Shown in pieces: positions 1,453 through 25,800 of a stretch of 35,486 nucleotides of DNA. The stretch is from positions 1-35,486 of IMG/VR virus record IMGVR_UViG_3300031227_000200; one strand, written 5' to 3'. This DNA comes from a virus. Position 1 is the first letter of the stretch; every line of letters starts with the position of its first letter. The notes under the pieces were generated by a model. The model saw only the letters and a list, made by a program, of their open reading frames with translations, did no database searches and had not been told where the DNA came from. The position numbers and the translations under genes are program-made.

Positions 1453-1457
1453 TGTCC

Positions 1458-3843: not shown

Positions 3844-3845
3844 AA

Positions 3846-7409: not shown

Positions 7410-7427
7410 GACGATGTACCGCCAAAA

Positions 7428-8809: not shown

Positions 8810-8879
8810 CCCATCATCTCCTCTTCGGATTCTCTCTGCGCCCCTCTAAACAGTTGCGGGCGCGAGGTGTATGCTTACC

Positions 8880-13780: not shown

Positions 13781-14859
13781 CTGTTATCATGGCTCCCCGT
13801 CATAGTGCTAAGGTCTATCTCACCTGTTGGCGCAGTGGAGAAGTCACCGGGCTCCCACACGCCGGGGCCTTGGTTGCCGGAGGTGCCGCGTGCGCTGTCC
13901 TTCTGTACCCCAAATCCCCAAGGCTGATTGACCGCCAATCGGAACTGCTTGCAAAAGAATGCCCAGGGATTGGCGTTTCCGGTCGGTTGCGGCTTTGTGG
14001 CAAAGCACATCTTCACCTGTTGTTCGATGACTTCCCACCCGTCTGCTACAAAAAGTTGAGTGAGCCGCGAGTAACCCTTCAACTTACCGTCCGGCATGTT
14101 GCCAAGGTCAAGCATCTCCCAACACTCCCGGATGACCCTCTGGACATCCGTTTCATTCGGCTTCTCTGGAGCAGGTGGTTCGGGAGTATCATCGGGGAAA
14201 AGAGTAGGAGAGTTTTCAGAACCCGCCGCGTCAGCGGCGAGGTTGTTAAGGCCGTTACTTCTTAACTTCTTAACGTCGTTAACTTCTTGTGAATCGCAAC
14301 CTCCGTCCCGAGAGGTTGTTTCCTCCGAAGTATCCTCGCCACCAGCCCCTGCGCCAGTTGGTGTGCCAGCTTCCAATCCTCCGTTTGGGAAGGTTGGATT
14401 GTTCAAAGTGTCATCCTCCGTTTCAGGAGGTTGGCATCCTCCGTTTGAGAAGGTTGGAACCTCCGGCTTAGGAGGTTGAGCGTTTTCTGCAGGAGTGGCA
14501 TCCTCCGTTTCAGAAGGTTGTTGAAACGCATCATAATTCATGATCCGCAAGCGGCCCCGGCTGTTGTGGTGCGAGGTCCTGCCGCGCTTGTCAATAATGA
14601 CTAGCCCCGCCTCGATCATAGCGGTCTCTACTCGTTGCGCGGTAGAATACCCAACCTGGAGCGCTACCGCTCGCTGTTCGCGCGGCCAGGGCTTCCCGTC
14701 GAGATCGCACAGGCAACCACGGTACGGCTCCTGCCACCGGGCCAGCATGACGTACTTGAGGAATGCCAGTTGTGCCGACTTATCTAGCTTCATCAAGCTG
14801 CTCTCGGGCCGCAATGCCTGCCGGTGAAACTTCACCCAACCGTTTTGTTCTACGCCCAT
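13777..14859 (-). CDS. Replication initiator (O-like), winged-helix N-terminus, carries the likely origin
   Basis: 360 residues. The N-terminal ~105 residues (GWVKFHRQALRP, LDKSAQLAFLKYVMLARWQE, VALQVGYSTAQRVETAM, AGLVIIDKRGR) look like the winged-helix DNA-binding part of phage initiators. A long, low-complexity linker (residues ~115-265) is encoded by the repeat array at 14298-14521. The C-terminus (VIRECWEMLDLG, KGYSRLTQLFVADGW, ANPWAFFCKQF) probably contacts the loader or helicase. Lambda O has the same plan, with iterons inside its own gene. ATG 14859 has AGGAAG upstream; 37 extra in-frame codons before it overlap the next gene and are rejected. Confidence 0.85.
   Translation of the reverse strand: MGVEQNGWVKFHRQALRPESSLMKLDKSAQLAFLKYVMLARWQEPYRGCLCDLDGKPWPREQRAVALQVGYSTAQRVETAMIEAGLVIIDKRGRTSHHNSRGRLRIMNYDAFQQPSETEDATPAENAQPPKPEVPTFSNGGCQPPETEDDTLNNPTFPNGGLEAGTPTGAGAGGEDTSEETTSRDGGCDSQEVNDVKKLRSNGLNNLAADAAGSENSPTLFPDDTPEPPAPEKPNETDVQRVIRECWEMLDLGNMPDGKLKGYSRLTQLFVADGWEVIEQQVKMCFATKPQPTGNANPWAFFCKQFRLAVNQPWGFGVQKDSARGTSGNQGPGVWEPGDFSTAPTGEIDLSTMTGSHDNR
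14298..14521 (+). repeat. Iteron-like repeats, likely replication origin
   Basis: Six copies of a ~22-base unit with core CCTCCG-TTTN-GRAGGTTG lie at 14298, 14375, 14412, 14435, 14458 and 14499, three of them spaced 22-23 bases apart. Most are themselves imperfect inverted repeats; the one at 14458-14477 is AACCTCC-N6-GGAGGTT with perfect arms. They fall in the linker of the initiator gene. Copies are read in two different reading frames (QPxETED in some, PTFxNGG in others), so the DNA, not the peptide, is what is conserved. By analogy with lambda O I infer initiator-binding sites. Confidence 0.7.
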
Positions 14860-14869
14860 TGGTGACTTC

Positions 14870-15022
14870 CTAGTCGCGAAGCAGTATGCCCAACAGCGCG
14901 CTAAAGCAGGCGAATATGCCCATGAAAATAGCACCGTCCACGTCGGCGCAATACTGGATGCAGATAGCACACCCCATGACGAGTATTGATACGCCCCAGA
15001 ATACGAATATGCTCCAGTTCAT
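14870..15022 (-). CDS. Small two-helix membrane protein
   Basis: 50 residues, too short for a routine length cut, with two hydrophobic segments (WSIFVFWGVSILVMGCAICI and IFMGIFACFSALLGILL). GGAGGT lies eight bases before ATG 15022. It is the first gene after promoter and leader element E1 and directly precedes the initiator gene. The function is unknown; small inner-membrane proteins at the head of early operons sometimes alter host physiology or superinfection. Confidence 0.8.
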   Translation of the reverse strand: MNWSIFVFWGVSILVMGCAICIQYCADVDGAIFMGIFACFSALLGILLRD

Positions 15023-15047
15023 ATTATCCACCTCCAGACAAAAAGAC

Positions 15048-15173
15048 AAGGCCACCCGCGTATCGCAAACCGCATGCCCGGCGAGGGGAATGGAGGTCAT
15101 TGCCGCAGGTGGCCTTTATCGGTTGTGGTGTTCGTGGTGACATGAAAAAACTCCATTCTCTCTCTCGCCGGGT
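15048..15173 (-). ncRNA. Leader RNA element E1 with interleaved stems (A-B-A'-B')
   Basis: The 5' strand of stem A starts at the predicted +1 (15173). Stem A pairs 15164-15172 with 15077-15085 (CCCGGCGAG with CTCGCCGGG) and, after an internal loop, 15151-15158 with 15088-15095. Stem B pairs 15104-15116 with 15048-15060, 13 bp with one G-U. The linker between stem B 5' and stem A 3' is 8 nt. The strands come in the order A, B, A', B', which is pseudoknot order. A U-run follows B', then the ribosome site of the small membrane gene 25 bases on. E2 and E3 share the plan. The function is unknown. Confidence 0.72.
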
Positions 15174-15179
15174 GCCCTC

Positions 15180-15208
15180 AGTATATACCCCGCCGGCGCA
15201 GGAGTCAA
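15180..15208 (-). promoter_or_regulatory. Sigma-70-type promoter for the replication operon
   Basis: On the minus strand TTGACT (15203-15208), a 17-base spacer, and TATACT (15180-15185). Six bases after the -10 lies the predicted +1 at 15173, where element E1 begins. The -35 box includes the TGA stop of the methyltransferase gene. I see no operator palindrome. Confidence 0.85.
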
Positions 15209-16128
15209 GCCTCATCCGGCCAAGTATCCATCTGCGGCTGCGCGGGCTGGGCTTCGGCGACAGCCTCAGGGATGCGGAGCGCTGTCTCTGCCTCCATCAG
15301 CGTTGCCCCCAGAAGCTCCGCGCAGCGCGCCATAACGACTGCCGCCACTTGCGGAACCCATCCGTTACCGAGCACTCGCAGCCTGTCCACCCAATTGGGA
15401 ATCCCATCAGCCACTCTATCCACGTCGGGTTCAGCGGCCCACCAGTTTCCCGCGCTATCGCCGTCGCCAAGTCGTCGCCTCCGCTGCCCGGCCTGTTCGC
15501 CCTCGCATAGTCCGGCCCCGAGGGACTGCCCTTTGGCGTCGGCCACATCCTTCTTGCCATTACCACTTCTAGATTGGGAAACTTCTCCTTGGCAATCGCT
15601 GGTATAATAGTTCTTGTCATTATGATAGAGCTGCGCGGTGTAGGCCACGATCCAGACTCGTTTTCGCAGGTGCGGCGCACCAACGTCTGCAGCCGATATA
15701 GTTGCCCATTCCGCATCAAGCCCGTCGCTGGCAAACTCTCCGAGTATTCTTCCCATCCCCCGAGCAAGCAAGCCTGGTACGTTCTCAATGAGCACGAGTC
15801 GGGGTCGTATCTCGCGAATGATTCGCCTTGTGTCGGGCCATAAATCACGCTCGTCGGCTGCTCCTCGGCGCTGCCCTGCAACGGAATAGGGCTGACAGGG
15901 GATGCCTCCAAAGAGGAAATCCACTCGGTCACGCCACGGTCGCCCGTCGAAGGTCCGGAGGTCATCCCATATTGGCGCGTCGCAGATAACTCCGTCGCGC
16001 ATCCGGGCTTGCAGGAGCTGCTGGCAGTAGGGGTCGCGCTCGACGTAGCAGACGGTTCGCCCGCCGAACTCTTTCCAGACTGCGCTTCCGATGCCACCAC
16101 CGGCGCATATATCCAGGCCATTTAGCAT
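15205..16128 (-). CDS. dcm: DNA (cytosine-5) methyltransferase
   Basis: 307 residues with the C5-methyltransferase motifs in order: motif I LDICAGGGIGSAVWKEF (from residue 5), the catalytic GGIPCQPYSVAGQRRG with Cys78, ENV at 115-117, ISAADVGAPHLRKRVWIVA (motif VIII region), and the late GIPNWVDRLRVLGNGWVPQVA (motifs IX-X). The target-recognition part between ~165 and 240 is short. Motif X reads GNGWVP rather than the common GNAVVP. AGGAGG precedes ATG 16128, and a longer in-frame form is rejected. It should methylate a specific cytosine and guard phage DNA. An open frame of 274 codons overlaps it in another frame on the same strand. Confidence 0.92.
   Translation of the reverse strand: MLNGLDICAGGGIGSAVWKEFGGRTVCYVERDPYCQQLLQARMRDGVICDAPIWDDLRTFDGRPWRDRVDFLFGGIPCQPYSVAGQRRGAADERDLWPDTRRIIREIRPRLVLIENVPGLLARGMGRILGEFASDGLDAEWATISAADVGAPHLRKRVWIVAYTAQLYHNDKNYYTSDCQGEVSQSRSGNGKKDVADAKGQSLGAGLCEGEQAGQRRRRLGDGDSAGNWWAAEPDVDRVADGIPNWVDRLRVLGNGWVPQVAAVVMARCAELLGATLMEAETALRIPEAVAEAQPAQPQMDTWPDEA
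15297..16121 (-). CDS. Possible overlapping gene in an alternative frame of the methyltransferase
   Basis: 274 codons stay open in a second frame on the same strand. The product has pieces I recall from phage and prophage proteins annotated near C5 methyltransferases: SFARYDPDSCSLRTYQACLL, WEEYSESLPATGLMRNGQL, WPTPRSS, WPTPKGS and GPLNPTWIEWLMGFPIGWT. The last is encoded by the same bases as the methyltransferase segment RVADGIPNWVDRLRVLG. It has no good ribosome site, so it may be read by overlap or be a passive by-product of the conserved main frame. I rate expression as unproven. Confidence 0.35.
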   Translation of the reverse strand: MAWIYAPVVASEAQSGKSSAGEPSATSSATPTASSSCKPGCATELSATRQYGMTSGPSTGDRGVTEWISSLEASPVSPIPLQGSAEEQPTSVIYGPTQGESFARYDPDSCSLRTYQACLLGGWEEYSESLPATGLMRNGQLYRLQTLVRRTCENESGSWPTPRSSIIMTRTIIPAIAKEKFPNLEVVMARRMWPTPKGSPSGPDYARANRPGSGGDDLATAIARETGGPLNPTWIEWLMGFPIGWTGCECSVTDGFRKWRQSLWRAARSFWGQR

Positions 16129-16298
16129 GATTCCTCCTGTGATCTGTCCCTCGGCATAACCCACTTCACCGGACGAAAACCGCGACAGAGATGACCGTAT
16201 GGCTTGCACCTATAGCCGGCGGGGTCCTCCGTGTAGTGGCGGAAGTCACTGCACTTCCCGCACCAGATGCGCGTGTTCTTCTTGTTGGGCGCTGGCAT
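16122..16298 (-). CDS. Small Cys-rich protein, possible zinc ribbon
   Basis: 58 residues starting MPAPNKKNTRIWCGKCSDF. Cys13-x2-Cys16 and Cys31 with Cys38 (YRCKPYGHLCRGF) could hold one zinc. GGGAGG lies before ATG 16298, and the stop overlaps the methyltransferase start by seven bases, so it is probably coupled to it. The family is not recognised. Confidence 0.8.
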   Translation of the reverse strand: MPAPNKKNTRIWCGKCSDFRHYTEDPAGYRCKPYGHLCRGFRPVKWVMPRDRSQEESC

Positions 16299-16300
16299 GG

Positions 16301-16351
16301 TTAGGCCTCCCTCACAGTCTCAACTATGCGTTGGGCTTCACCGATGGTCAT
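16301..16351 (-). CDS. Possible 16-residue peptide
   Basis: MTIGEAQRIVETVREA. The ATG overlaps the upstream stop (ATGA) and has GAGG five bases before it; the stop is two bases from the next start. This fits the spacing of neighbouring genes, but so short a frame can arise by chance. Confidence 0.35.
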   Translation of the reverse strand: MTIGEAQRIVETVREA

Positions 16352-16719
16352 ACAAGCCTCAATAGGAGCATCAGGGTCTCTTCCGCAATTCTTAGTCCGT
16401 ACTGGATTTTGCGGTCACTGTCATAGTCAAACTTCTCTTCTCTCCGCCGCAGAAGCTCGGCAACCTGTTCGCGCACAGCTTCGGCCAACTGCTCAGAACT
16501 CAACTCGCCATACATGTATTCGGGCGTGTTGCGGCGCTCTGCGTCGGGGTCCTCCGCCTGCATCTCCGCCACGTCCGCGATATGCTGCTGGACAACGCTT
16601 GCCACTATCTCCGCACCACGTATCATCCCCTTGATAGCAGACAGGTCTCGGAGTATGTCATTCTGCTTGTCGCCGAACTCGCGAATCCTGCTGTGCAGCT
16701 TCTCCATCAGTCCTTGCAT
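16348..16719 (-). CDS. Hypothetical helical protein
   Basis: 123 residues starting MQGLMEKLHSRIREFGDKQN. It is predicted by eye to be almost all helix with heptad character (LRDLSAIKGMIRG, AEAVREQVAELLRRREEK), so a coiled coil or dimeric DNA-binding protein is possible. AAGGGTGA lies before ATG 16719; a GTG three codons upstream is too close to it. The downstream neighbour may be the 16-residue peptide. Not recognised. Confidence 0.78.
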   Translation of the reverse strand: MQGLMEKLHSRIREFGDKQNDILRDLSAIKGMIRGAEIVASVVQQHIADVAEMQAEDPDAERRNTPEYMYGELSSEQLAEAVREQVAELLRRREEKFDYDSDRKIQYGLRIAEETLMLLLRLV

Positions 16720-16751
16720 CCCAATCACCCTTTCTCAGTCTGTTTAGTGCA

Positions 16752-16854
16752 GGGCCGAGCCTGGTGTTCAGCATCGGGAGCATCACCAGCAGTCAGCGAT
16801 TTGTACCCACGCAAGGGGCACCCGATTTCCGGTTGCCACAGCAACGCTCGGCCC
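16752..16854 (-). ncRNA. Candidate four-way-junction RNA in a 145-base gap
   Basis: The gap between two genes (16720-16864) holds nested inverted repeats: a 9-bp closing stem GGGCCGAGC/GCTCGGCCC (16752-16760 with 16846-16854), GTTGC-4-GCAAC (16832-16845) touching its inner end, GTACCC-7-GGGCAC with one G-U pair when read as minus-strand RNA (16803-16821), and CTGGTG-17-CACCAG (16761-16789) touching the other inner end. Together they fold as a cloverleaf-like four-way junction. No tRNA T-arm or good promoter is seen. It could be a leader, a processed RNA or a DNA site. Confidence 0.45.
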
Positions 16855-16864
16855 CGTAGAATTG

Positions 16865-17095
16865 TCATCCGAATGGATGCGATACAACGTCTGGATATAT
16901 GTGGTCGCGGTCAACGCGTTCCCGCGTACACGTTGGGCAGAAGTAGTCGTAGTCGCCATCATCGCGCATCTCGTTTGACCACCCGTACCTATCCATCCAC
17001 GCGCCAAGGTCTCCGTCGGGCGCGACACCTGTGTTGCAATCCACCCCGCACTCATCGCAGGTGATACAGATATGGCCCTCGTATTCACTTAGCAT
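16865..17095 (-). CDS. Small zinc-ribbon protein
   Basis: 76 residues starting MLSEYEGHICITCDECGVDC. Two Cys pairs (ITCDECG and FCPTCTRER) about 45 residues apart form a plausible zinc ribbon, with an acidic GWSNEMRDDGDYD stretch between. GGGAGG precedes ATG 17095. Overlaps the next small gene upstream by 11 bases. The role is unknown. Confidence 0.82.
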   Translation of the reverse strand: MLSEYEGHICITCDECGVDCNTGVAPDGDLGAWMDRYGWSNEMRDDGDYDYFCPTCTRERVDRDHIYPDVVSHPFG

Positions 17096-17234
17096 CGGCG
17101 GCCTCCCATCTGTCCTTGTAGCGTTCCCATTGTATGCGTCCAGTCTCGACCCATTTGTCCCAATCGGGGCCGAGAAGCGTGGCGGGCGGCTGAGGCGGAA
17201 ATGGCCTCCATACACAGTCGGCTTTAGTCCACAT
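17085..17234 (-). CDS. Small Trp-rich hypothetical protein
   Basis: 49 residues starting MWTKADCVWRPFPPQPPA, with six Trp. AGGAGG lies seven bases before ATG 17234. It overlaps both neighbours by 11 bases, as part of a chain of tiny genes from 16.3 to 19.8 kb. No family is recognised. Confidence 0.78.
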   Translation of the reverse strand: MWTKADCVWRPFPPQPPATLLGPDWDKWVETGRIQWERYKDRWEAADAK

Positions 17235-17385
17235 CGGCGGCCTCCTCAGTCGCGGCGTGCTTGGCTGCCCGTTGCTCTTCTGCTTGCCAGCGACAATGAC
17301 TCACCACCGGAGATGGCACATAGAAGACATCGCATGAGAAACAGAGAGGACCTTCGTACAATCTCTCGCCTCTGCGCCTACTCAT
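17224..17385 (-). CDS. Small hypothetical protein with Cys pair
   Basis: 53 residues starting MSRRRGERLYEGPLCFSCDV. A perfect AAGGAGGT lies six bases before ATG 17385. One C-F-S-C pair and a later His-Cys might bind metal. Overlaps the upstream gene by eight bases. Not recognised. Confidence 0.8.
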   Translation of the reverse strand: MSRRRGERLYEGPLCFSCDVFYVPSPVVSHCRWQAEEQRAAKHAATEEAADVD

Positions 17386-17737
17386 CGGGGACCTCCTTAG
17401 TCGCGGCGAGAACCTCGTCGACAATGCTCGATAGACACCACGGCCAGAAATGGAGCCCATCTACAGTCGGCGGCATATCGGATACGGTTAGTTGACGCAG
17501 GTGATCCATCGCCCGCTCAATGTGCGCTGGCGAGTGGCCCACTACCGGGTTCCCCTCCGCGTCGAAGCCGAGGGGCCTGCCACAGGAAGGACAATAATGA
17601 GCTTCTACTGGGGAACCGTCAATTTCCCCCTCCAATAACGTCCAGTAACCATAGCCCGCGTTGTTATACCATTCGCATCTATGGCAACCGCAGTGAGCAT
17701 CCCCCGCCCCGTCAGTCGGCGCTGGTTGCATGGTCAC
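17378..17737 (-). CDS. Zinc-ribbon protein, GTG start
   Basis: 119 residues. Cys pairs CGCHRCEWY and YCPSCGRPLG form a zinc ribbon of the type common in small phage proteins. The C-terminal half is helical with a Trp-rich spot (GLHFWPWCL). The start is GTG 17737 because AAGGAGG lies six bases before it, while the ATG two codons later is too far. Overlaps the upstream gene by 26 bases. Confidence 0.83.
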   Translation of the reverse strand: MTMQPAPTDGAGDAHCGCHRCEWYNNAGYGYWTLLEGEIDGSPVEAHYCPSCGRPLGFDAEGNPVVGHSPAHIERAMDHLRQLTVSDMPPTVDGLHFWPWCLSSIVDEVLAATKEVPDE

Positions 17738-18296
17738 GGGCGGCCTCCTTAGTGATTTCTCTGTCCGTCAGTTGAGCTATCTCCGGCCAAGGGTCGTCGC
17801 CTTCGCGTGTGCCAGTCAACGCCCGTGCGCTATCTGCCAGCATGGATAGGTATTCTCTATCTCCAGGTTCACTCCAGCCCGCAGAGAGCATGCACCCCAA
17901 TCGCGTCTGGAGCAGATTGGCCGTGCGCAGGATCGCGACATTCGCTTCTTCACGCTCGGCCTCCGCATTCAAGCAGTCCACACCACGCCCGCGCAGCATA
18001 TCGGCAAGGTCGAGCGCCCTCTGTTTAGCTTCCTCAAGCTCCTGCACCACCTCCGCGTGCGCGGCATCAAGCTCCGCCGCGTAGACAGCATCAACAGCAG
18101 ACATTGCGTCCTCCAGCGTTGTATGGTCGCCATCTGGTATTATTGGCAATGTCGTAGGCCACGGCCAGTATTCGCACAGGAATAGGCCTTCCACTTCCAC
18201 AACGGATGAATTAGGCGCTTTCCGGCCCGCGCCATAGTTTCGTCTCCAGCCCCAACTGTAACGCACCCACCCATCTGGCAGCTTCTCGTTGCTCAT
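17712..18296 (-). CDS. Hypothetical protein, NEKLPxGW family, coiled coil
   Basis: 194 residues. The start MSNEKLPDGWVRYSWGW and a following LFLCEYWPW match the 93-residue protein at 18543-18824 (MNEKLPEGWERVPRGW, then a Trp/Tyr strand), so the two are paralogues. After about residue 75 it has an extra coiled coil (AAHAEVVQELEEAKQRALDL) and a helical tail. It overlaps the next gene by four bases. No function is known to me. Confidence 0.82.
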   Translation of the reverse strand: MSNEKLPDGWVRYSWGWRRNYGAGRKAPNSSVVEVEGLFLCEYWPWPTTLPIIPDGDHTTLEDAMSAVDAVYAAELDAAHAEVVQELEEAKQRALDLADMLRGRGVDCLNAEAEREEANVAILRTANLLQTRLGCMLSAGWSEPGDREYLSMLADSARALTGTREGDDPWPEIAQLTDREITKEAARDHATSAD

Positions 18297-18550
18297 CCCG
18301 CCATCTCCTTCCGCTTCTTCTCAAGCTCCGCCGCGTCTCCCGTCAAGATAGCCCGTTGTCCATCTCTGGCTTTTCTCAGCGCTGTCTGTGCTGCCTGATA
18401 GCTCATAGCGGTATCGCCCAACCGTCCACCTCCGGGCGGCTCGTATGCCCATCGCCACTGTCCATCACCAACCTCATCCAACTCAGATTCCCCGCCATTC
18501 GGATAGCGCGTGAGCGTCGTCCTGAGGCATTTGTAGTCGGGATTATTCAC
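18293..18550 (-). CDS. Hypothetical protein sharing a domain with the large repeat protein
   Basis: 85 residues with GTG start behind GAGGAGA. The stretch TRYPNGGESELDEVGDGQWR, then WAYEPPGG, parallels the tail of the 703-residue protein at 8880-10991 (CFPSGAVSYIIEEPNGRCRW, then DYRVPAGY), followed in both by an Ala/Gln helix (AAQTALRKARD; SLEQARTQRD). I infer a shared small beta domain. It lies between the two NEKLPxGW paralogues. Confidence 0.8.
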   Translation of the reverse strand: MNNPDYKCLRTTLTRYPNGGESELDEVGDGQWRWAYEPPGGGRLGDTAMSYQAAQTALRKARDGQRAILTGDAAELEKKRKEMAG

Positions 18551-18824
18551 TCGTCACTCTCCTCTTCGCGGCCTCAAGCTCCGCGTGTTTCTGCTCTACG
18601 GCGGCTATGGCGTCGGCGGCTAATCGGTACGGTTTCCAGGGAGTATGCTGCGCAGTGACCATGTGTGACGCGATAGTCGAATACCGCAGGCAATGATACT
18701 CCCACGGTCGCCCGCGCAGGTCCTCGACGACGGCCCAGGCATAGCGGCCATCTGCGTCAGCAGGAAATTGTTTCATCCATCCGCGCGGCACACGCTCCCA
18801 CCCCTCCGGCAGCTTCTCATTCAT
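18543..18824 (-). CDS. Hypothetical protein, NEKLPxGW family
   Basis: 93 residues, a shorter paralogue of the protein at 17712-18296. It has MNEKLPEGWERVPRGW, a beta region ending WEYHCLRY and one helix (IAAVEQKHAELEAAKRR). GAGGGTGA lies before ATG 18824, which overlaps the upstream stop as ATGA. Confidence 0.82.
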   Translation of the reverse strand: MNEKLPEGWERVPRGWMKQFPADADGRYAWAVVEDLRGRPWEYHCLRYSTIASHMVTAQHTPWKPYRLAADAIAAVEQKHAELEAAKRRVTSE

Positions 18825-18961
18825 CCCTGCTCACCCTCTCCGACTCCCGCCGCCGCGAAGTCCCCGTAGTACAGTTGCGCGGCCTCGCGACGCTTCACCA
18901 TATCCCTGGCGCGCGCTTCTCTATCGCACCGCTCGACGTTATCAACTCGAATTGTGGCCAT
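18821..18961 (-). CDS. Small hypothetical protein
   Basis: 46 residues starting MATIRVDNVERCDREARARD. It is charged and helical with a glycine-rich tail. AAGGGGTGA lies before ATG 18961, and the stop overlaps the next start (ATGA). Not recognised. Confidence 0.75.
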   Translation of the reverse strand: MATIRVDNVERCDREARARDMVKRREAAQLYYGDFAAAGVGEGEQG

Positions 18962-18986
18962 CGCGTCTCACCCCTTTCAGTAGTGT

Positions 18987-19535
18987 TCAACCGAGTCTAT
19001 GCTCACTCTGCCCTGCATCATTCTCAGCGTCCTCAGCCACTACTTCATCTATAGCCTCTTGCATAATTTCCTCGACGGTTTTGTCGCAACTACCCGTGCC
19101 CAAAGTTGTACAATCAACCAGTGCGTTCGCAACCACATAAAGCGCCGCCTTGTAACACTCCGCACTCATCGGCAGCTCATCTTCCGCGAATTCGCCGCTC
19201 AGGATGGACGCGAGGTATGTCACTTGGTCTGCCCGCACTTGCTCCGCGTGGTCAATCGCCTGAGCAACTCCATCGCACCACAACTCATTCAACATGCGGT
19301 CTATGGGTTCCGCCGTGTGTCGCGGCACGTCGTACTCTACCATCGCCAACCCTACGCCCTCGAAAGACAGCCTCAATTCCGAGTCAGCCCGCTCAATGAC
19401 TATTGGCTCATCGTGCGGCCCCTTCTGTGGCATTGACTTGATGATCCCGTCGGTGAAAAGCCACATCCATGTCAACTCCCCCGTATCCGTCTGTGCAACT
19501 ATCTCTGCCACTACTGCTGTCGTCGCGTCACTCAT
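18987..19535 (-). CDS. Hypothetical acidic protein
   Basis: 182 residues. Mixed alpha/beta first half (ELTWMWLFTDGIIKSM, IVIERADSELRLSF), then helices and a very acidic tail (DEVVAEDAENDAGQSE). The ATG at 19535 has AAGGGGAG five bases upstream; a GTG one codon before is less likely. The strong negative charge recalls DNA-mimic anti-defence proteins, but no fold is recognised and this is speculation. Confidence 0.8.
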   Translation of the reverse strand: MSDATTAVVAEIVAQTDTGELTWMWLFTDGIIKSMPQKGPHDEPIVIERADSELRLSFEGVGLAMVEYDVPRHTAEPIDRMLNELWCDGVAQAIDHAEQVRADQVTYLASILSGEFAEDELPMSAECYKAALYVVANALVDCTTLGTGSCDKTVEEIMQEAIDEVVAEDAENDAGQSEHRLG

Positions 19536-19818
19536 CACAACTCCCCTTTCTGATATGCCAGTCTGATACGTTGCTCAATCCGTAATGGTAGCTTTCCCAA
19601 CGGTCTGCGCCAGGGGGTAGCCAAATACATATTCTGCCCGCTTGCTCCAGTCGGCGGGCCGCTAATTTGACAGCTAGGTGCATGGAGCCCGCCTTGCGGT
19701 CGTCATTGTTCTCAATTATCCTAGCGATGGTAAATGCCGTATTGGTCTCATTGGTGGACTGTTGAAGTAGCAAAATGATTCGCTCATCCAACAGATACTT
19801 TTCCTTGGCTGGCTTCAT
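19528..19818 (-). CDS. Hypothetical protein, possible winged helix
   Basis: 96 residues starting MKPAKEKYLLDERIILLLQQ. The order helix, helix (TAFTIARIIENND), helix (MHLAVKLAARRLEQAGR), then a short beta hairpin (ICIWLPPGADRW) suggests a winged helix-turn-helix, so it may be a regulator. It is the first gene after promoter and leader E2, some 290 bases from +1. AAGGGGG lies before ATG 19818. Confidence 0.78.
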   Translation of the reverse strand: MKPAKEKYLLDERIILLLQQSTNETNTAFTIARIIENNDDRKAGSMHLAVKLAARRLEQAGRICIWLPPGADRWESYHYGLSNVSDWHIRKGSCDE

Positions 19819-19849
19819 GGTAGCGCCCCCTTACGGTACGCCTGCTCTT

Positions 19850-19971
19850 GCGAGGGTGGCCCGATAGCTTTTTTGGCTCACGCAGCCATCGGAGGTTTGA
19901 CCAGCGTGTAAACTAAGCCCCGGTCTAGGGGCCGCGCCAACTATTGCGGCAACTGCGGCCACCACCCTCGC
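19850..19971 (-). ncRNA. Second structured domain of the E2 leader
   Basis: Between E2 and the first start codon a 10-bp perfect stem GCGAGGGTGG/CCACCCTCGC (19850-19859 with 19962-19971) encloses three further helices: CCGATAGCT/AGCCATCGG (19861-19869 with 19884-19892), GCCCC/GGGGC (19917-19921 with 19928-19932) and GGCCGC/GCGGCC (19930-19935 with 19955-19960); the last two share three bases and compete. It sits 31 bases before the start codon. A riboswitch-like or protein-binding leader is possible; I match it to no known class. Confidence 0.55.
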
Positions 19972-20007
19972 ATATCAATGTGCGCTACGAACATGCTGCT
20001 CAAACAA

Positions 20008-20107
20008 AAGGCCCGCCTAGCGAGTTTCCTACACCTGTCGAGGGCGCAGCGCTCGTTGATAGGCGGGCCTTATATACACACAAAAGAACGCTACTCCTTC
20101 GACAGGT
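20008..20107 (-). ncRNA. Leader RNA element E2 with interleaved stems (A-B-A'-B')
   Basis: Starts at the predicted +1 (20107). Stem A pairs 20099-20107 with 20033-20041 (9 bp), has a 6x6 internal loop, then AGCG/CGCT (20089-20092 with 20048-20051). Stem B pairs 20060-20071 with 20008-20019, 12 perfect base pairs. The linker between stem B 5' and stem A 3' is 8 nt (TCAACGAG). Same plan as E1 and E3. B' is followed by a U-rich stretch. The leader then runs a further ~190 bases, with another structured domain. Confidence 0.75.
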
Positions 20108-20113
20108 AACCCG

Positions 20114-20142
20114 ATTATATAGGATGCAAGTATTGGTGTCAA
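20114..20142 (-). promoter_or_regulatory. Consensus sigma-70-type promoter
   Basis: On the minus strand TTGACA (20137-20142), a 17-base spacer and TATAAT (20114-20119): a full consensus match. Predicted +1 at 20107, six bases after the -10, is the first base of E2. It lies just past the stop of the 3D-domain gene. Confidence 0.9.
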
Positions 20143-20150
20143 GGCCTTTC

Positions 20151-20663
20151 TCACCTTCGCTCAATCCAGATTGGCCGCACATACGTCGCGCCACAACGCC
20201 CTGGCATATACAAATCAATCCAGGTCTCGCCGCCTTCTCGTCGCGCCCGGCCTGCGTTGCGTCTGCTCCCTGTGTCCCATACCTGCCGTAACTCATAACC
20301 CGCTGGCAAATCCACCAGCACAAAGGTCCCCCAGGGCATCCCGCTTCGAGGCTCCAGCATTGCGGCAGTGCGGCCTCGCTCCACACGGCGGCCAGAGGCG
20401 GTCGTGGAGTTCACGCCAGGTTCGCCTGACCAATAATGCGTGATCCATGCTATGCGCTTCCTCGCACCATGCTTCAGCAGGCGAGAAAATCCTACTTTCT
20501 GCCACTCGTGCAATTCTCCATACGCTCCCGCCAAGGCCTTCTCCGCACAGCGCAAGCAGGGGTCTTCGGTCTGAGCGGCCTGCGGTAGTTGCTGCGTATC
20601 GGCGGCACCGGATAGCACCGTCAGGACTATGGCTGCTGCTGCAAGGACGCGCTCAGGATTCAT
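20151..20663 (-). CDS. Secreted 3D-domain (double-psi barrel) protein
   Basis: 170 residues. A signal peptide is visible (MNPERVLAAAAIVLTVLSG, then AADTQ). The C-terminal half, WITHYWSGEPG, TTASGRRVERGRTAA, PWGTFVLVDLPAGYELRQV, then WDTGSR and ETWIDLYMPG, follows the pattern of 3D domains (conserved Asp at DTG and D-L-Y), found in MltA-like lytic transglycosylases and cell-wall proteins. I infer a peptidoglycan-acting protein, perhaps for entry or exit. It lies far from the main lysis cassette. AGGAGG precedes ATG 20663. Confidence 0.72.
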   Translation of the reverse strand: MNPERVLAAAAIVLTVLSGAADTQQLPQAAQTEDPCLRCAEKALAGAYGELHEWQKVGFSRLLKHGARKRIAWITHYWSGEPGVNSTTASGRRVERGRTAAMLEPRSGMPWGTFVLVDLPAGYELRQVWDTGSRRNAGRARREGGETWIDLYMPGRCGATYVRPIWIERR

Positions 20664-20988
20664 CGGTATTGCCTCCTATGGCGATGGCCTCGACCCGCTG
20701 GCGTTCAAGCTCGATATGCTCCTTGCGCCATTCCCGCCACCACATCGGCGCTTTCTTATTCATCTCATCCACCGGCATAGGCTTGCCAAGCGCGAAGGCC
20801 CGCCAGCAGCAGGTGCAGTCCAGTGGCCCATCGCCGGAGTCTTCCGTTGTCCAGCATTCAGCGCACTCGGGAAACTCATGGTTAGCGTCTTGGCGAAGAG
20901 CATGGCACGGACACCAAGGACGTTCCTCGTCAGTGTCCACGCATGTGCCCAACACGCCTATCATAGTCTCGACACGTTCACTCTTCAT
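20653..20988 (-). CDS. Cys-rich hypothetical protein
   Basis: 111 residues starting MKSERVETMIGVLGTCVD. Eight Cys in the middle (WCPCHALRQ, ECAECWTT, LDCTCCWRAF) probably form metal sites. A basic/aromatic helix follows (MWWREWRKEHIELERQR). I use ATG 20988, nine bases after AAGGGG; longer in-frame forms overlap the upstream gene. Not recognised. Confidence 0.75.
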   Translation of the reverse strand: MKSERVETMIGVLGTCVDTDEERPWCPCHALRQDANHEFPECAECWTTEDSGDGPLDCTCCWRAFALGKPMPVDEMNKKAPMWWREWRKEHIELERQRVEAIAIGGNTDES

Positions 20989-21574
20989 TCTCGTCATCCC
21001 CTTCGCTTTTGGCAGCCTCGGTCTCAGCCGCCAGTTGCTTCGCGGCTTGCTCCAGCAGGTAGGTGTGCCAACACTCCTCTTGCTGGTCGCTCCCGCAAGG
21101 CTTGAAAACTCCATCGAGCGCATCGGGGCCTGTTGGACGCGGCAGTTTGCATCCATCCCACCACGGCGACGGGAGTTCAATAATGTTCGGGCATTTGTCC
21201 CAACAGAGCAAGCGTGCCGCAATCTCCAGCGCCCGCCGCGTCGGGTCGGGACTGAGCTTCTCGGCTACCAGGCGGAGGGCGGTAGCGGCGTCGGCGGGAG
21301 TGGCGGGTTGATACTTGTTGCCAACGTCCTTGTCTTCCCATGATGCAAATTCGGGTTCGCAATCGAAACTCCGAACATACATCACTCCGCGCCAAGGCCC
21401 TTCATCCTGCGGGCAGTTTGCGCCTATGGCAATGTCCCAGGATACTACTCCGTTCTCTGCCTGCGCCTTCCGCACCGCCTCGGTTATCGGTGTCTTGCTC
21501 TTTGCCTGCTCGACCATACGCTGATCTTCGCGCCCTGCGTCTTCTGCGCCGCGTCGCTCGTTACTCACCGCCAT
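20978..21574 (-). CDS. Hypothetical protein
   Basis: 198 residues. Basic N-terminus, then VVSWDIAIGANCPQDEGPW, a helix (PADAATALRLVAEKL), a Cys/Trp-rich segment (RLLCWDKCPNII, PCGSDQQEECWHTYLLE) and an acidic tail. The two Cys pairs may hold zinc. ATG 21574 has GAGAGGA upstream. The family is unknown. Confidence 0.8.
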   Translation of the reverse strand: MAVSNERRGAEDAGREDQRMVEQAKSKTPITEAVRKAQAENGVVSWDIAIGANCPQDEGPWRGVMYVRSFDCEPEFASWEDKDVGNKYQPATPADAATALRLVAEKLSPDPTRRALEIAARLLCWDKCPNIIELPSPWWDGCKLPRPTGPDALDGVFKPCGSDQQEECWHTYLLEQAAKQLAAETEAAKSEGDDENEE

Positions 21575-21689
21575 CACGTCCTCTCCGCGTGATCCGTCTC
21601 AGCGCCTCGGGCAGGCGCCCCCAACCTACGACTAGGAGGACCAGCAGGGCTAGAAACCATCCGCTCGGGGTTGCTCCGTCAATCATCAT
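21561..21689 (-). CDS. Tiny single-pass membrane protein
   Basis: 42 residues starting MMIDGATPSGW. One hydrophobic segment (WFLALLVLLVVGWG) is followed by a basic tail (RLPEALRRITRRGRDGG), so the C-terminus probably faces the cytoplasm. GAGGAGG lies seven bases before the first of two ATGs. Overlaps both neighbours. Confidence 0.72.
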   Translation of the reverse strand: MMIDGATPSGWFLALLVLLVVGWGRLPEALRRITRRGRDGGE

Positions 21690-21960
21690 GGTCATCCTCC
21701 TCATCGCCAGGAAGCCGAGACCATCCGCTCTCTAGCTCACGGGCCACCTCTGCGCCGCCAATCTGTATCTCCTCGACAGTGACGGAGTCGTACTCCTCGC
21801 CGAGGGAGACCTCAATCGGCTCTGGCAGCAGGATAGTCAGCACGGCATCTGCCGGCATGATTGAGGAGAGGCTACGACAGTTCCCGTCGCTATCCCACGT
21901 TTCTACAACGCCGCCGATACCCAAAATATGACCTGTCTCTATGCACCTAATCACCATCAT
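21679..21960 (-). CDS. Hypothetical acidic protein
   Basis: 93 residues starting MMVIRCIETGHILGIGG. Mostly beta (AVLTILLPEPIEVSLGEEYD) with an acidic tail (GDEEDDHDD). The ATG pair at 21960/21957 has AAGAGAGA upstream. The 80 bases before it hold a CTCCCC-3-GGGGAG hairpin but no gene. Not recognised. Confidence 0.76.
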   Translation of the reverse strand: MMVIRCIETGHILGIGGVVETWDSDGNCRSLSSIMPADAVLTILLPEPIEVSLGEEYDSVTVEEIQIGGAEVARELESGWSRLPGDEEDDHDD

Positions 21961-22040
21961 TCTCTCTTTCCGGGCAGGCCGACCGGCTCCCCGGTGGGGA
22001 GGCGAAGCCAGCCACTGGTTATTGCCTACTGTCCATCTCC

Positions 22041-22430
22041 TCAAGTTGCGAATGGGTCATCATCGGCGAACGGATCATCATCAGGCGGCGTGGAGTTGTC
22101 GGTAGCCTGCTGCTGCCCTTGCCTCGCTTGGTCGCCGAACGTAACAGTGTGGGCGATGACCTTCCAGCCTGTCCGTTTCTCGCCGCTATCGGCAGTCCAG
22201 CTCTCCTGCTGCACTCGACCAGACACGGCGACATTCGAGCCTTTGTGGAGATATTCCACAACCGCTTCCGCAACCGCATCAAATGCTATACAGTTGAACC
22301 AACCAGGCTCATCCTTGTTTTGATGTGCGGCGCGCACTGCTACGGAAAACACGCAGAACTTCTTCCCGCCCTGGCTGTTCTTCTGCTCCGGCTCGCCGCC
22401 CAGGCGACCGGCGATATTGATACTGTTCAT
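22041..22430 (-). CDS. ssb: Single-stranded DNA-binding protein
   Basis: 129 residues with the OB-fold order of bacterial SSB: MNSINIAGRLGGEPEQK, KFCVFSVAVRA, PGWFNCIAFDAVAEAVVEYL, KGSNVAVSGRVQQESW, KVIAHTVTFGD. It ends in a short acidic tail, DDDPFADDDPFAT, like the conserved SSB tip that binds partner proteins, but with AT after the last Phe. GGAGGT precedes ATG 22430. Encoded beside the annealing protein, it should coat DNA in replication and recombination. Confidence 0.95.
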   Translation of the reverse strand: MNSINIAGRLGGEPEQKNSQGGKKFCVFSVAVRAAHQNKDEPGWFNCIAFDAVAEAVVEYLHKGSNVAVSGRVQQESWTADSGEKRTGWKVIAHTVTFGDQARQGQQQATDNSTPPDDDPFADDDPFAT

Positions 22431-22453
22431 TTCTGTAACCTCCGTTTGTAGTG

Positions 22454-23407
22454 TTATGCGTCCGGTTGTGCGTCCTGCTCAGGTGTTGCCTCCGGCTGTG
22501 CGTCAACTGCTGCCCCGCTATCTTGGTGGCGGCGCCAGACTGCAGCACACATCGTGGCATCAAGATCATCGATTGCTACCCATTCATGATTAGGTTGCGT
22601 GAGCTTGATTAGTGCATTGACTACATTGTCGTGACTGGCAGGCTCATTCCCTTGCTCGCTGAGGTAGAATGCGAGGTCGCCAGGCGTCTGCGGCGCGTCT
22701 GACGGTGGCCCGCCCATGCGCTGAGGTTGTGGTTCCGGCGGCGCAGGCTCCTGTGGTGGCGCGTCTTGCTCGTTCGGTGATGCTACGGCTTCGGCGATAG
22801 CGCCCTCCGTTATGGCGTCTGCGATGTCGCAGGTGCCCTTGCACTTGGGATATGTGCTACACCCGTAGAATTTTCCCTTCTTGCCATCTCGCAATCGCAT
22901 GGGCGCGCCACAGTCAGGACACGTCACGTTGCCAACAACCTGCTCCTGCGCGGCGTTGCTTGTTGCGGCAGGGCCGTTGCCCTGCTGCTGGCCTCCCTGC
23001 GCCGCCTGCGGACGTGTAGCGCCCGCGTTGCCCACAGGACCATCTACAATCCGCTTACCCTCATCAAGCTCTTCGCCGCAGAACTGCGTACCGTAGCCGA
23101 GCAATGCCAGTGCCCGCCCGATAGCTCCGGTCTCTGCCTTCTCAACGAAATCAGCGAAGCCGCCCTTGGTCTCCGTCTTCGTTGCCGTGGCAACCATGCG
23201 CCCCTCTGGATCGTAGATGTTCGCGCGGTATCGCGCTGCCTGCTCAGTAACATCTTCGCCAACCGTGCTGATGCCCCACCCGCTGTCTGCTGGGTAATCC
23301 TGCCGAAACCACACGAGGCGCCACTTCACCTCCAGATATTCCTTGCCCTTGATGTCAGTCAGGTGCGACCGTGGGTCAAACTGCCCGTTGCTCACTGCTT
23401 CTGCCAT
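22454..23407 (-). CDS. Probable single-strand annealing protein with C4 zinc ribbon
   Basis: 317 residues. The first ~125 residues (HLTDIKGKEYLEVKWRLVWF, RANIYDPEGRMVATATKTET, DFVEKAETGAIGRALALLGY, GTQFCGEELDEGKRIVD) match a phage family seen with recombination genes; ETGAIGRALA also occurs in ERF/Rad52-like proteins. A linker leads to a topoisomerase-type zinc ribbon, CPDCGAPMRLRDGKKGKFYG then CSTYPKCKGTC (residues 163-193). The C-terminal ~60 residues are a separate helical piece. Neighbours SSB and Gam-like protein support a recombination role. ATG 23407 has GAGGAG upstream. Confidence 0.75.
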   Translation of the reverse strand: MAEAVSNGQFDPRSHLTDIKGKEYLEVKWRLVWFRQDYPADSGWGISTVGEDVTEQAARYRANIYDPEGRMVATATKTETKGGFADFVEKAETGAIGRALALLGYGTQFCGEELDEGKRIVDGPVGNAGATRPQAAQGGQQQGNGPAATSNAAQEQVVGNVTCPDCGAPMRLRDGKKGKFYGCSTYPKCKGTCDIADAITEGAIAEAVASPNEQDAPPQEPAPPEPQPQRMGGPPSDAPQTPGDLAFYLSEQGNEPASHDNVVNALIKLTQPNHEWVAIDDLDATMCAAVWRRHQDSGAAVDAQPEATPEQDAQPDA

Positions 23408-23412
23408 TTGCC

Positions 23413-24180
23413 TCAGCTCCTCTTTGTACAATTTTCTGCGAGGGCGTCCTGCTCCCAGCGGAGGCGGACTAGCCTGCCCTCGTTGGTATGTATCCAACCT
23501 ATATGGCACCTCTCGCAAAGGCAGATACCATTTGCTTCGTCACTGCGTAGTTCGGGATAGTCTGCAAAAGCCGCTTTGTGGTGGACGTGCAGGCCCTTGC
23601 TGTGCTTATCGAAGACCTTGCCGCAAAGCTGACAGGCGTAAGCATCACGCTTGCGGCAGGCGCGCCTCCACTCACGGGAGCCATTCTGTTCCCACCTGCC
23701 GCGCTCGTCACTTGCACCGCCCTTCCAGCCGGGATGACTCTCGCCAGTCTGATGTTCGCTCATCCACACCCCTTTGCACTTAGTACCACAAAAGTGGTGT
23801 TTTGAGCGCGCCAGCTGGTCGGGCTTTCTTTCTACTAGTGCACCACATTGCGCACAGGCACAAGTGGCGAGGCCGCCGTTCCAATTGCAACTATTCTCGC
23901 CAGTTCGATGTTCGCTTCTCCATGCCCCGTGACATTCCTTGTCGCAAAAGTGGTATTTCGACTTTGCTAGCTCACTGGGTTTTCTCTTCAATGGTGTGCC
24001 GCACTGCGCACAGATACAGGCGACAGGGCCGCCTTTCCAACGGGGATGATTCTCGCCAACTTGATGCTCACTTCTCCAAGCCCCCATACACTTATAATCG
24101 CAAAAGCGGTGCTTCGAGCGCAATAATTCGCAGGGATTTCTCCATAGCGACTTCCCGCACTGATCGCACGTACAAATCAT
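23413..24180 (-). CDS. HNH endonuclease with three tandem zinc-binding repeats
   Basis: 255 residues. Residues 3-154 are three copies (period 52) of C-x2-C-G...RKP-x-L-x-RSK-x-x-FC-x3-C-x-G-x-W-x-SEH-x-x-GE-x3-x-W-x-GG. Each can bind one zinc and probably contacts DNA. The nuclease part (181-231) has ACQLCGKVFD, LHVHHKAAFADYPELRSDEA and NGICLCERCH, a complete HNH motif with Cys4 support. Such free-standing enzymes are often homing endonucleases. It is the first gene of its operon, between E3 and the annealing protein. The start ATG 24180 is 39 bases after E3. Confidence 0.92.
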   Translation of the reverse strand: MICTCDQCGKSLWRNPCELLRSKHRFCDYKCMGAWRSEHQVGENHPRWKGGPVACICAQCGTPLKRKPSELAKSKYHFCDKECHGAWRSEHRTGENSCNWNGGLATCACAQCGALVERKPDQLARSKHHFCGTKCKGVWMSEHQTGESHPGWKGGASDERGRWEQNGSREWRRACRKRDAYACQLCGKVFDKHSKGLHVHHKAAFADYPELRSDEANGICLCERCHIGWIHTNEGRLVRLRWEQDALAENCTKRS

Positions 24181-24219
24181 GACTTCGCCTCTTTGGATTT
24201 CTCTGCGCCACACAACGAG

Positions 24220-24319
24220 ATAGCCCGCCCGCGATTCGATTTTGCTTGCCTGCCGAGGCGTAGCGTTATCGGTTGCGGACGGGCTATAGAAAGCACAAAA
24301 CGCCACGGTCTCGGCAGAC
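24220..24319 (-). ncRNA. Leader RNA element E3 with interleaved stems (A-B-A'-B')
   Basis: Starts at the predicted +1 (24319). Stem A pairs 24310-24319 with 24248-24257 (GTCTGCCGAG with CTCGGCAGGC, one G-U), internal loop, then GCGT/ACGC (24300-24303 with 24263-24266). Stem B pairs 24275-24287 with 24220-24232, 13 bp. The linker between stem B 5' and stem A 3' is 8 nt (AACCGATA). Same plan as E1 and E2 with different bases at paired positions. The HNH gene starts 39 bases downstream. Confidence 0.75.
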
Positions 24320-24325
24320 GTTTCA

Positions 24326-24354
24326 ATTATACAGGAGGCGAATAGCGAAGTCAA
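24326..24354 (-). promoter_or_regulatory. Sigma-70-type promoter for the HNH/recombination operon
   Basis: On the minus strand TTGACT (24349-24354), a 17-base spacer and TATAAT (24326-24331). The -35 contains the TGA stop of the SWIM-type gene. Predicted +1 at 24319 is the first base of E3. Confidence 0.88.
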
Positions 24355-24620
24355 GCTGCACCCTCAGCTCCTTTTCTCACTGCAATCCAGATCATCTCGA
24401 CGGCTAGAATATGGCTACACCTGCGGTTTGGTCGATGCATCCAATATTGACATTCACAATACCAGCATCGCCCGTCGTTGCGTACATCATAGGTTGCGGT
24501 ATCTCCTTGCACCGTGGCGTGGCAACCGTCTAGCCCGCCGGAGTGCCACGCAGCCTTCCCGCGTGCCAGCAGCCGCGCCGCTTTCCTCCACTGGTTGCCA
24601 GTCGGCTTGTGTTTCTTCAT
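24351..24620 (-). CDS. Small SWIM-type zinc-finger-like protein
   Basis: 89 residues. A basic N-terminus (GNQWRKAARLLARGKAAWH) precedes a beta part and CWYCECQYWMHRPNRRCSHI, which fits C-x-C...C-x-H of SWIM zinc fingers (YDVRNDG-CWYCEC also matches). SWIM domains bind nucleic acid or protein partners. It is the last gene of its operon and its stop overlaps the next promoter. The ribosome site before ATG 24620 is weak (GAGGT, 13 bases away), so coupling to the Gam-like gene is likely. Confidence 0.8.
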   Translation of the reverse strand: MKKHKPTGNQWRKAARLLARGKAAWHSGGLDGCHATVQGDTATYDVRNDGRCWYCECQYWMHRPNRRCSHILAVEMIWIAVRKGAEGAA

Positions 24621-24624
24621 CTGG

Positions 24625-25302
24625 CTACACTACCTCGAATGTCCGCTCTTCGTCGGGCTGCTTCATCCGCACGAACTCGACAACCAGGCCGGTGCCGGAA
24701 TGCACGAAAGAGCCATCTGCCTGTTCCTCGAGGCGCTCCTTGAATGGCGTCCTTGCTAGCGTTTCATTGATGACGCCGAGCATTTCCTGTGCGTGCGCGA
24801 AGCCCAGCGCGGCGTCCTCATCCCATACAATATACGCCCGGTTCTTCTTCATCATCAGCTTGACGCCGCAGGGCAACGCCACGCTCGTCTCGTCGGCATG
24901 GAAGTCGCCGAAATACTGCTCCAACACATAGGCGAAGAAACTCTGCGCCCGCAGGTGCTTCTGCGTCTCAGTCTGCTGCCACTTCCGTATCTGCGCTATC
25001 TGGCTATCGGCTACCGTGTCCACCTCGGCACATTTCTCCCGCGCCCGCGCAACCTTCTGCGCCGCCCAGTCTGCCAAGCGCATTGCGCCTCCGGCCTCGC
25101 CGCCTGCGTGATCGCGGATGTTCCAGCCGGTACGTTCCGCGTCAACTATCTGGCCGGCAGTGATGCCAAACTCCGCCGCTACATACTCCTCCAGCGCGCC
25201 TTCGAGGTCGCCTTCGTCGGTCACGCCCAGAACCTTCATCAACTCATTGCGTTCTTCGTCCGTTGCGTCATCCAACATTTCCCGTGCGTCTGCCATTGTC
25301 AT
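24625..25302 (-). CDS. gam: Gam-like host-nuclease inhibitor
   Basis: 225 residues. The central coiled coil (VADSQIAQIRKWQQTETQKH) followed by SFFAYVLEQYFGDFHADE, VALPCGVKLMMKKNRA and IVWDEDAAL matches the Mu Gam type, which binds DNA ends and blocks host exonuclease degradation. An extra N-terminal ~100 residues holds short helical regions. A GGAGGG precedes two ATGs six bases apart; the first is at 25302. Together with annealing protein and SSB it forms a recombination set. Confidence 0.83.
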   Translation of the reverse strand: MTMADAREMLDDATDEERNELMKVLGVTDEGDLEGALEEYVAAEFGITAGQIVDAERTGWNIRDHAGGEAGGAMRLADWAAQKVARAREKCAEVDTVADSQIAQIRKWQQTETQKHLRAQSFFAYVLEQYFGDFHADETSVALPCGVKLMMKKNRAYIVWDEDAALGFAHAQEMLGVINETLARTPFKERLEEQADGSFVHSGTGLVVEFVRMKQPDEERTFEVV

Positions 25303-25457
25303 TCGCCCTCCGTTGCAACCGGCACATCATCCGGTCGCCGATAGTGCTTGCTATTCGTCCAGCCAAGCCGCACTGCCTCGGCCTGCACCGCCACCGTTTC
25401 GCTGAAGCTGGTCCGCAAAACTTGCTCCGGTCGCGTGGCTGTCTGCTTAGTTGCCAT
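25299..25457 (-). CDS. Small hypothetical protein
   Basis: 52 residues starting MATKQTATRPEQVLRTSF. GGAGGTAAG lies before ATG 25457. Stop and start overlap both neighbours, so it is in the operon of the HTH and Gam-like genes. Not recognised. Confidence 0.78.
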   Translation of the reverse strand: MATKQTATRPEQVLRTSFSETVAVQAEAVRLGWTNSKHYRRPDDVPVATEGE

Positions 25458-25746: not shown

Positions 25747-25770
25747 AGCGATTACTCCTTTCTATAGGAC

Positions 25771-25800
25771 ATTATAGTCCAGTCTATAGTACGGTGTCAA
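25771..25800 (-). promoter_or_regulatory. Promoter with palindromic operator, copy 1
   Basis: Minus strand TTGACA (25795-25800), 18-base spacer, TATAAT (25771-25776). A 16-base palindrome, TATAGTCCAGTCTATA (25773-25788), covers the spacer and -10. A near-identical one lies at 32372-32387, same position relative to the boxes. A repressor bound here should block RNA polymerase. The -35 overlaps the TGA stop of the upstream small gene. Confidence 0.87.

Follow-up and report, generated by a model that had tools for sequence, protein, structure and literature searches.

Interleaved-stem leader RNAs behind phage promoters: a candidate class of 5'-terminal pseudoknots in an uncultured bacterial virus and two further phage lineages

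Uncultured virus record IMGVR_UViG_3300031227_000200 of IMG/VR (35,486 bases, 59% G+C, viral host type given as bacteria) is analysed here over its whole length, which we refer to as the window. The genes recognised on its minus strand encode a terminase, a DnaB-like helicase, a DnaC-like loader, a sliding clamp, a single-stranded DNA-binding protein (SSB; open reading frame (ORF) 22041-22430), a Mom-like protein and a DNA methyltransferase, and a search of the window for tRNA and tmRNA genes returned none. Our subject is a leader RNA with two long interleaved stems, of which three copies, E1, E2 and E3, lie between genes on the minus strand. A promoter scan places a sigma-70-like promoter with a 17-nucleotide (nt) spacer directly 5' of each copy. 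The transcription start (+1) given for every copy is a prediction, namely the 7th base past the -10 hexamer. The promoters and leaders, with the paired strands of helices A, P1b, B and C, are as follows.

15180..15208, minus strand: E1 promoter, TTGACT-17-TATACT, 10/12
15048..15173, minus strand: E1 leader RNA, predicted +1 at 15173; A 15172-15164/15085-15077, P1b 15157-15151/15095-15089, B 15116-15104/15060-15048, C 15103-15100/15068-15065
20114..20142, minus strand: E2 promoter, TTGACA-17-TATAAT, 12/12
20008..20107, minus strand: E2 leader RNA, predicted +1 at 20107; A 20107-20099/20041-20033, P1b 20094-20089/20051-20046, B 20071-20060/20019-20008, C 20055-20052/20024-20021
24326..24354, minus strand: E3 promoter, TTGACT-17-TATAAT, 11/12
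24220..24319, minus strand: E3 leader RNA, predicted +1 at 24319; A 24319-24310/24257-24248, P1b 24306-24299/24267-24260, B 24287-24275/24232-24220, C 24271-24268/24240-24237

A promoter-blind search of the window for interleaved stems (A of at least 8 base pairs (bp), B of at least 12, at most one G-U pair per stem) returned only E1 (in two registers), E2 and E3 on the minus strand, and on the plus strand a single match, the complement of E2. In 100 first-order Markov simulations, the same kind of match occurred 0.05 times per strand on average and once at most. An earlier note had proposed these three elements from the letters alone, and its coordinates, strand and strand order A-B-A'-B' agree with the helices as re-read. 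It had also let each element begin at +1, which holds for stem A of E2 and E3; in E1 stem A begins at +2. As the note had observed of two promoters that it calls operator-controlled, nothing similar follows those at 32399 and 25800, the other two strong promoters of the minus strand (both 12/12, with 18-nt spacers).

Further copies were found in other phages. With the protein encoded at 13777-14970 as query, two IMG/VR contigs were recovered, L107 and L108, each with two copies, E4 and E5, identical between the contigs. E6, on contig L180, came from a scan for promoters combined with a loose stem-A signature, among the matches listed.

L107 5225-5330: E4, promoter 11/12
L107 8992-9097: E5, promoter 9/12
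L180 4523-4653: E6, promoter 12/12

This brings the count to six distinct copies in three phage lineages, with two or three copies per genome in two of the phage genomes, which are partial records. Overall identity is 69% between E3 and E4 and 62-63% between E1 and E5, that is, across genomes, against 52, 54 and 64% among E1, E2 and E3 and 59% between E4 and E5; the copies within a genome thus did not arise by recent duplication. E5 shortly precedes the counterpart of gene 13777-14970, as does E1. L180 has 39% G+C, compared with 59% in the window; it carries a DnaB-like ORF and a QueF-like ORF that matches phage Dp-1, behind which stand ORFs that, by reading, would be QueC, QueD and QueE, arranged as in Dp-1. 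E6 supports a shared architecture, which may have arisen by descent or by convergence; its homology to the other copies is unproven.

When 188 distinct promoter-led sequences were scored, E1-E6 ranged from -41.6 to -50.7; none of the other 182 went below -25.0, and none of 940 shuffles below -30.4. The stem strength of each of the six was equalled by none of 4000 shuffles in which its own sequence was resampled beyond the first ten bases. In a wider scan of 3.0 Mb of collected loci with 6598 promoters, 22 rows scored -32 or lower, 17 of them E1-E6; of the remaining rows, two come from E1 read on its other strand (-33.4) and three from a sequence repeated in L208, L259 and L286 (-32.6), which we leave out of the copy count. 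In the reversed control, with 5679 promoters, 5 rows appeared; one natural interleaved RNA in L232 and L160, which survives reversal, accounts for the top two, -42.8 and -36.3. A score near -42 is therefore no proof of membership in itself, and the case for E6 (-41.6) rests also on its promoter, its position at +1, P1b and C. The RNA behind these control rows, at L232 about 3975-4090 (plus) and L160 about 181-66 (minus), is similar in both contigs and appears to be an unrelated phage RNA with long interleaved stems of its own, CTCCATTACTA/TAGTGATGGAG and CCCACACAGG/CCTGTGTGGG by eye; Rfam finds only tRNAs there.

The 13777-14970 and DUF4406 proteins led to only two viral contigs, again L107 and L108, and to none among genome contigs; a helicase query added four more distant contigs, L002-L005, with no copy in them. 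Relatives of the E6 phage, gathered by the QueF-like gene and one match to the window helicase (nine stretches of eight records, with Dp-1 whole and 45 kb of the 214-kb OR844990), held no copy, their best score being -32.8 as against -32.3 in the reversed control. A pattern for the B stem matched just the two contigs already known; two promoter patterns matched at least 120 and at least 119 stretches. Among the 101 stretches matched by a pattern for the A' motif, none had the architecture together with a promoter of 10/12 or better; one of them, L024, has a promoter of 9/12 and lies over a G-rich repeat array. BLAST of window positions 14000-25000 against phages and of E3 with its promoter against phages and plasmids gave no match. 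E6 with its promoter matched 84 phage records, and among the matches listed the pieces covered at most 20% of the query, with a best E of 1e-3, in the promoter part.

The anatomy common to E1-E6 was worked out with helices assigned by hand. In all six copies, 0 or 1 unpaired nt precedes stem A, counted from the predicted +1. Stem A (9-10 bp) is followed by an internal loop of 3-6 / 2-4 nt and by P1b (6-8 bp), and A and P1b together form stem 1, of 15-18 bp. Loop L1 measures 34, 17, 11, 17, 25 and 38 nt in E1-E6, respectively, and starts with a U-rich run in E1-E5. Stem B (9-13 bp) is followed by a bulge and by helix C of 4 bp (8 in E6, G-U pairs included), and C and B form stem 2, of 15-17 bp. 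The junction from C to the second strand of P1b is 4, 0, 0, 2, 2 and 1 nt long; after it come P1b', A', loop L3 (8, 8, 7, 10, 8 and 13 nt), C' and B', giving a total element length of 100-131 nt. Helix C had gone unnoticed in the earlier note, and consists of pairing between two segments that were there described as linkers. Two details of that description do not carry over to the class: the linker of exactly 8 nt is 8, 8 and 7 nt in E1-E3 and 10, 10 and 13 nt in E4-E6, and the A' strand CCTCGNCNGG, which is indeed present in E1-E3, is absent from E4-E6.

The predicted stems are supported by covariation. In a MAFFT alignment of E3 and E4, which was not fitted to structure, all 16 pairs of stem 1 are kept, five with changes on both sides and two with a change on one side; of the 12 pairs of stem B, one is changed on both sides and 11 are unchanged. 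The comparison of all six copies leans towards structure, the helices being hand-assigned, and the E3/E4 alignment serves as its unfitted check. In it, a copy's own strands pair at 89-100% of positions in A, 100% in P1b, 100% in C and 82-100% in B, compared with 68, 43, 45 and 67% when strands are swapped between copies. Three or more standard pair types occur at every one of the six P1b positions, and the unpaired exceptions in the shared register amount to one A position (E2), one B position (E5) and two B positions (E6). The compensating changes cited earlier for stem A were seen as well. Against a stem-1 covariance model built from E3 and E4 alone, E2 scores 35.6 bits (E 4.8e-7). The proposal of one conserved RNA at three transcription starts is thus supported, and extended by compensated copies in other phages, with the starts themselves predicted.

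The order of segments, S1-L1-S2-L2-S1'-L3-S2', is that of an H-type pseudoknot in 6/6 copies, with an L2 of 0-4 nt only if helix C forms. The strand order proposed earlier is borne out by the predicted pairing. Since A and B share no bases, both stems could coexist, and it can be argued that the long loops and the separate bases are what would be expected of a pseudoknot, not of two exclusive states. Helix C, with at least four Watson-Crick pairs within 4 nt of the junction in 5/6 copies, was equalled by 4 of 2000 shuffles.

What lies downstream varies. The first genes after E1-E6 are, in order, a 50-amino-acid (aa) ORF, an unknown gene, an HNH gene, a TnpB gene, an HNH gene and another unknown one. 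The next ATG lies 18-39 nt after B' in 5/6 copies and 189 nt after it in E2, and GGAG precedes it after E1, E4, E5 and E6. The ORFs concerned in the window are listed below.

14870..15022, minus strand: first ORF after E1, 50 aa, hydrophobic by eye
13777-14970, minus strand: ORF next after the 50-aa ORF, no family match, called a putative replication initiator from its position before the DnaC-like gene
19528..19818, minus strand: first ORF after E2, no Pfam match
23413..24180, minus strand: first ORF after E3, HNH endonuclease (PF01844, E 1.4e-6)

On L107, a TnpB gene without internal stops (5349-6659, plus; PF01385, PF07282) stands directly after E4, and with the HNH genes after E3 and E5 the slot behind the element seems to gather mobile nuclease genes.

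Taking these observations together, we tentatively favour the view, which in our estimate falls somewhat short of an even chance, that the E elements are 5'-terminal mRNA leaders that fold as a long H-type pseudoknot with a mechanical role at the 5' end. In this model, the transcript would begin at the element, with stem 1 starting at the predicted +1 or +2; stem 2 would stack on stem 1 across the junction of 0-4 nt, L1 (11-38 nt) and L3 (7-13 nt) would cross the stems, and both stems would coexist. The knotted and paired 5' end may then keep 5'-dependent decay of the RppH, RNase E or RNase J type off the transcript, and the element may insulate whichever gene comes next. A mechanical role is favoured because the paired 5' end is kept while the loop sequence and the downstream gene are not; protection or insulation would explain why structure and 5' position persist despite varying sequences and downstream genes. 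Of the functions suggested in the earlier note, 5' stability appears to fit best, and the ligand-sensing leader is weakened, as little unpaired sequence is held in common besides the U-rich stretch of E1-E5. In bacteria, 5' secondary structure hinders RppH and RNase E, as in the papA and bla 5' hairpins, and in Bacillus subtilis a structured 5' end can prolong the life of long mRNA downstream of it (PMC3997798). The paired 5' end is the likeness to E; the stabilisers there are single hairpins, not a conserved interleaved fold in several copies.

Several points weigh against this reading. The folding energies do not select the pseudoknot over a nested fold: with no pseudoknot penalty applied, the stems add up to -38 to -55 kcal/mol, against -37 to -51 for the nested minima, and for E4 the nested value is the lower of the two. 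The stem preferred by the nested minimum is stem 2 in E1-E5; in E6 it is stem 1. Helix C was recognised only in retrospect and, though moderately supported, is the least certain part of the fold; at a limit of 2 nt from the junction it is left with three copies (156 of 2000 shuffles do as well), and at 0 nt with one (794 of 2000). The E3+E4 model reaches E1 and E5 at E 0.18 and 0.54 only and does not list E6; a presumed chance match at 11344-11408 (E 0.39) ranks among its matches, as do the complement strands of E4, E3 and E2 (E 0.00086, 0.024 and 0.41). The sequence identity of E6 to the other copies is at chance level (45-50%; shuffled E2/E3 average 50), and the starts of all six copies are those predicted from their promoters. 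Finally, since a plain hairpin would also shield a 5' end, protection leaves the knot unexplained; the knot would make sense if the element resisted a 5'-3' exonuclease or made contact with RNA polymerase.

Such contact is what the next reading supposes, namely a cis-acting antiterminator like put of phage HK022, in which the nascent knot would bind RNA polymerase near the exit channel and make it ignore pauses and terminators. We regard this as unlikely, while giving it real weight. The put RNA suppresses termination and binds RNA polymerase close to the beta' zinc-binding domain. It acts in cis, lies behind an operon promoter and is present in two copies per phage genome; putL lies just downstream of PL with its first paired base at residue 3 (PMC9378689). 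The E elements likewise occur in several copies per genome, each directly after a promoter. The anatomy, however, speaks against the kinship that had been suggested: put consists of two consecutive stem-loops of about 70 nt in sequence-similar copies, with putR about 270 nt from the start (PMC9378689), whereas the stems of E are interleaved in 6/6 copies, span 100-131 nt, have diverged, and always stand at the predicted start. Moreover, little that could be antiterminated is visible below E1. In window 1-15500, the two strands together hold 9 terminator-like sites, no more than in shuffled sequence (12.3 expected), and those on the minus strand are three 6-bp stems, none of them strong, in a count that covers the intrinsic type and not Rho sites.

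A conditional attenuator is fairly improbable. Here, B-B' with a U-rich tail would be an intrinsic terminator gated by A-A', yielding either an RNA of about 110 nt or read-through. The eight bases after the last G or C of B' contain 6, 7 and 6 T in E1, E2 and E6, as the model would have it, but 4/8 in E3, E4 and E5; besides, A and B, which share no bases, are not exclusive, and the hairpin loops are long.

It is also quite improbable that the element serves as an operator through which a phage protein controls translation, in the way that gp32 acts on the 5' pseudoknot of T4 gene 32 mRNA. That structure, also found in phage RB69, is a pseudoknot in a phage mRNA leader upstream of the ribosome site (PMC535899), a likeness that E has by predicted pairing. 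As a precedent, either gp32 represses both the T4 and the RB69 target, although the two targets are unlike in sequence (PMC535899); a GGAG before four of the next ATGs and an SSB gene in the window would also suit an operator. Yet SSB is not the first gene after E1, E2 or E3, and the B' of E2 is 189 nt from the first ORF. The gene 32 pseudoknot measures about 28 nt, serves one gene and is followed by UUAAA/UAAA repeats (PMC535899), while the stems of E are much longer and the genes behind its copies are unrelated. By eye, no such repeats stand between B' and the ATG in the leaders, E2 not having been read as far as its ATG.

A separate small regulatory RNA, for example a decoy or anti-defence RNA that merely precedes a gene, is very improbable: the element is compact and strongly paired and has its own promoter, but the U tract is weak in 3/6 copies, the ATG follows closely in 5/6, and no conserved seed was seen. 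Unrelated hairpins that lie near promoters by chance, which low overall identity might suggest, are scarcely credible in view of the covariation, simulations, shuffles and promoter-led scoring. A self-cleaving ribozyme likewise seems unlikely on general grounds.

With regard to novelty, Rfam 15 gives 0 matches in the window at the gathering threshold. At E up to 5 over 19500-26500, which includes E2 and E3, there are two matches, one of them on E2 (BTnc201, 21.8 bits with 105 required, E 2.5). In the literature on structured phage RNAs and leaders, phage leader pseudoknots, put, gene 32 and RppH, mostly from outside subscription journals and as represented by titles and the starts of abstracts, the element is not described. 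By its predicted fold, it would fall among structured phage leader RNAs, a kind already known. Such RNAs are usually found by sequence similarity, which is nearly missing here; this one was found through a promoter plus interleaved stems. A wider proposition, possible in our view and clearly short of probable, is that of a nearly sequence-free class of phage leaders, in which a 5'-terminal pseudoknot 'cap' of 30-35 bp would block 5'-dependent decay or hold RNA polymerase, without a protein partner, in several copies per genome and in unrelated phages (those of E1-E5 and of E6), perhaps of independent origin. Among known systems, the ompA leader is another bacterial 5' stem-loop stabiliser, and flavivirus exoribonuclease-resistant RNA (xrRNA) is a knotted fold that stops 5'-3' decay; the latter differs from E in its fold, its place in the 3' untranslated region and its eukaryotic viruses, and we claim no kinship. 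If the element is protective or insulating, it would offer a compact and portable 5' element for gene expression, and would mean that phages oppose host decay with knotted 5' ends; as an antiterminator, it would add a second architecture to that of put.

Some smaller observations concern the surroundings of the elements. In E1 (window 15143-15024, minus) and E5 (L107 from 9018, plus), an ATG with a purine-rich site before it follows the U-run, and the frame of the internal ATG in E1 crosses the element, its TAA ending just before the next ATG. A leader-peptide function common to the class was rejected, as no such ATG was seen by eye in E2-E4 or E6. Between E2 and the next gene lies what looks like a second structured RNA (19850-19971, minus), in which GCGAGGGTGG/CCACCCTCGC would form a 10-bp stem that closes a branched fold. 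The predicted folding energy of window 19835-19990 is -68.7 kcal/mol (z -2.9; 0/200 shuffles as good), and Rfam at E up to 5 has no match for it. The two promoters that lack the element (25800 and 32399, minus) share a CTATAGA-TGG-CTATAATGT pattern, operator-like in look, near an ORF that reads as XRE-like (26265-26588). Just 5' of the promoter at 32399 is a strong intrinsic-terminator-like hairpin (32550-32527, minus; 8 bp, then a T-run), and this promoter (leader 32399-32320, minus) and one in a related phage, L114, have a common short leader, AATGAACAACRCACYGGAGGCGA, before the first gene.

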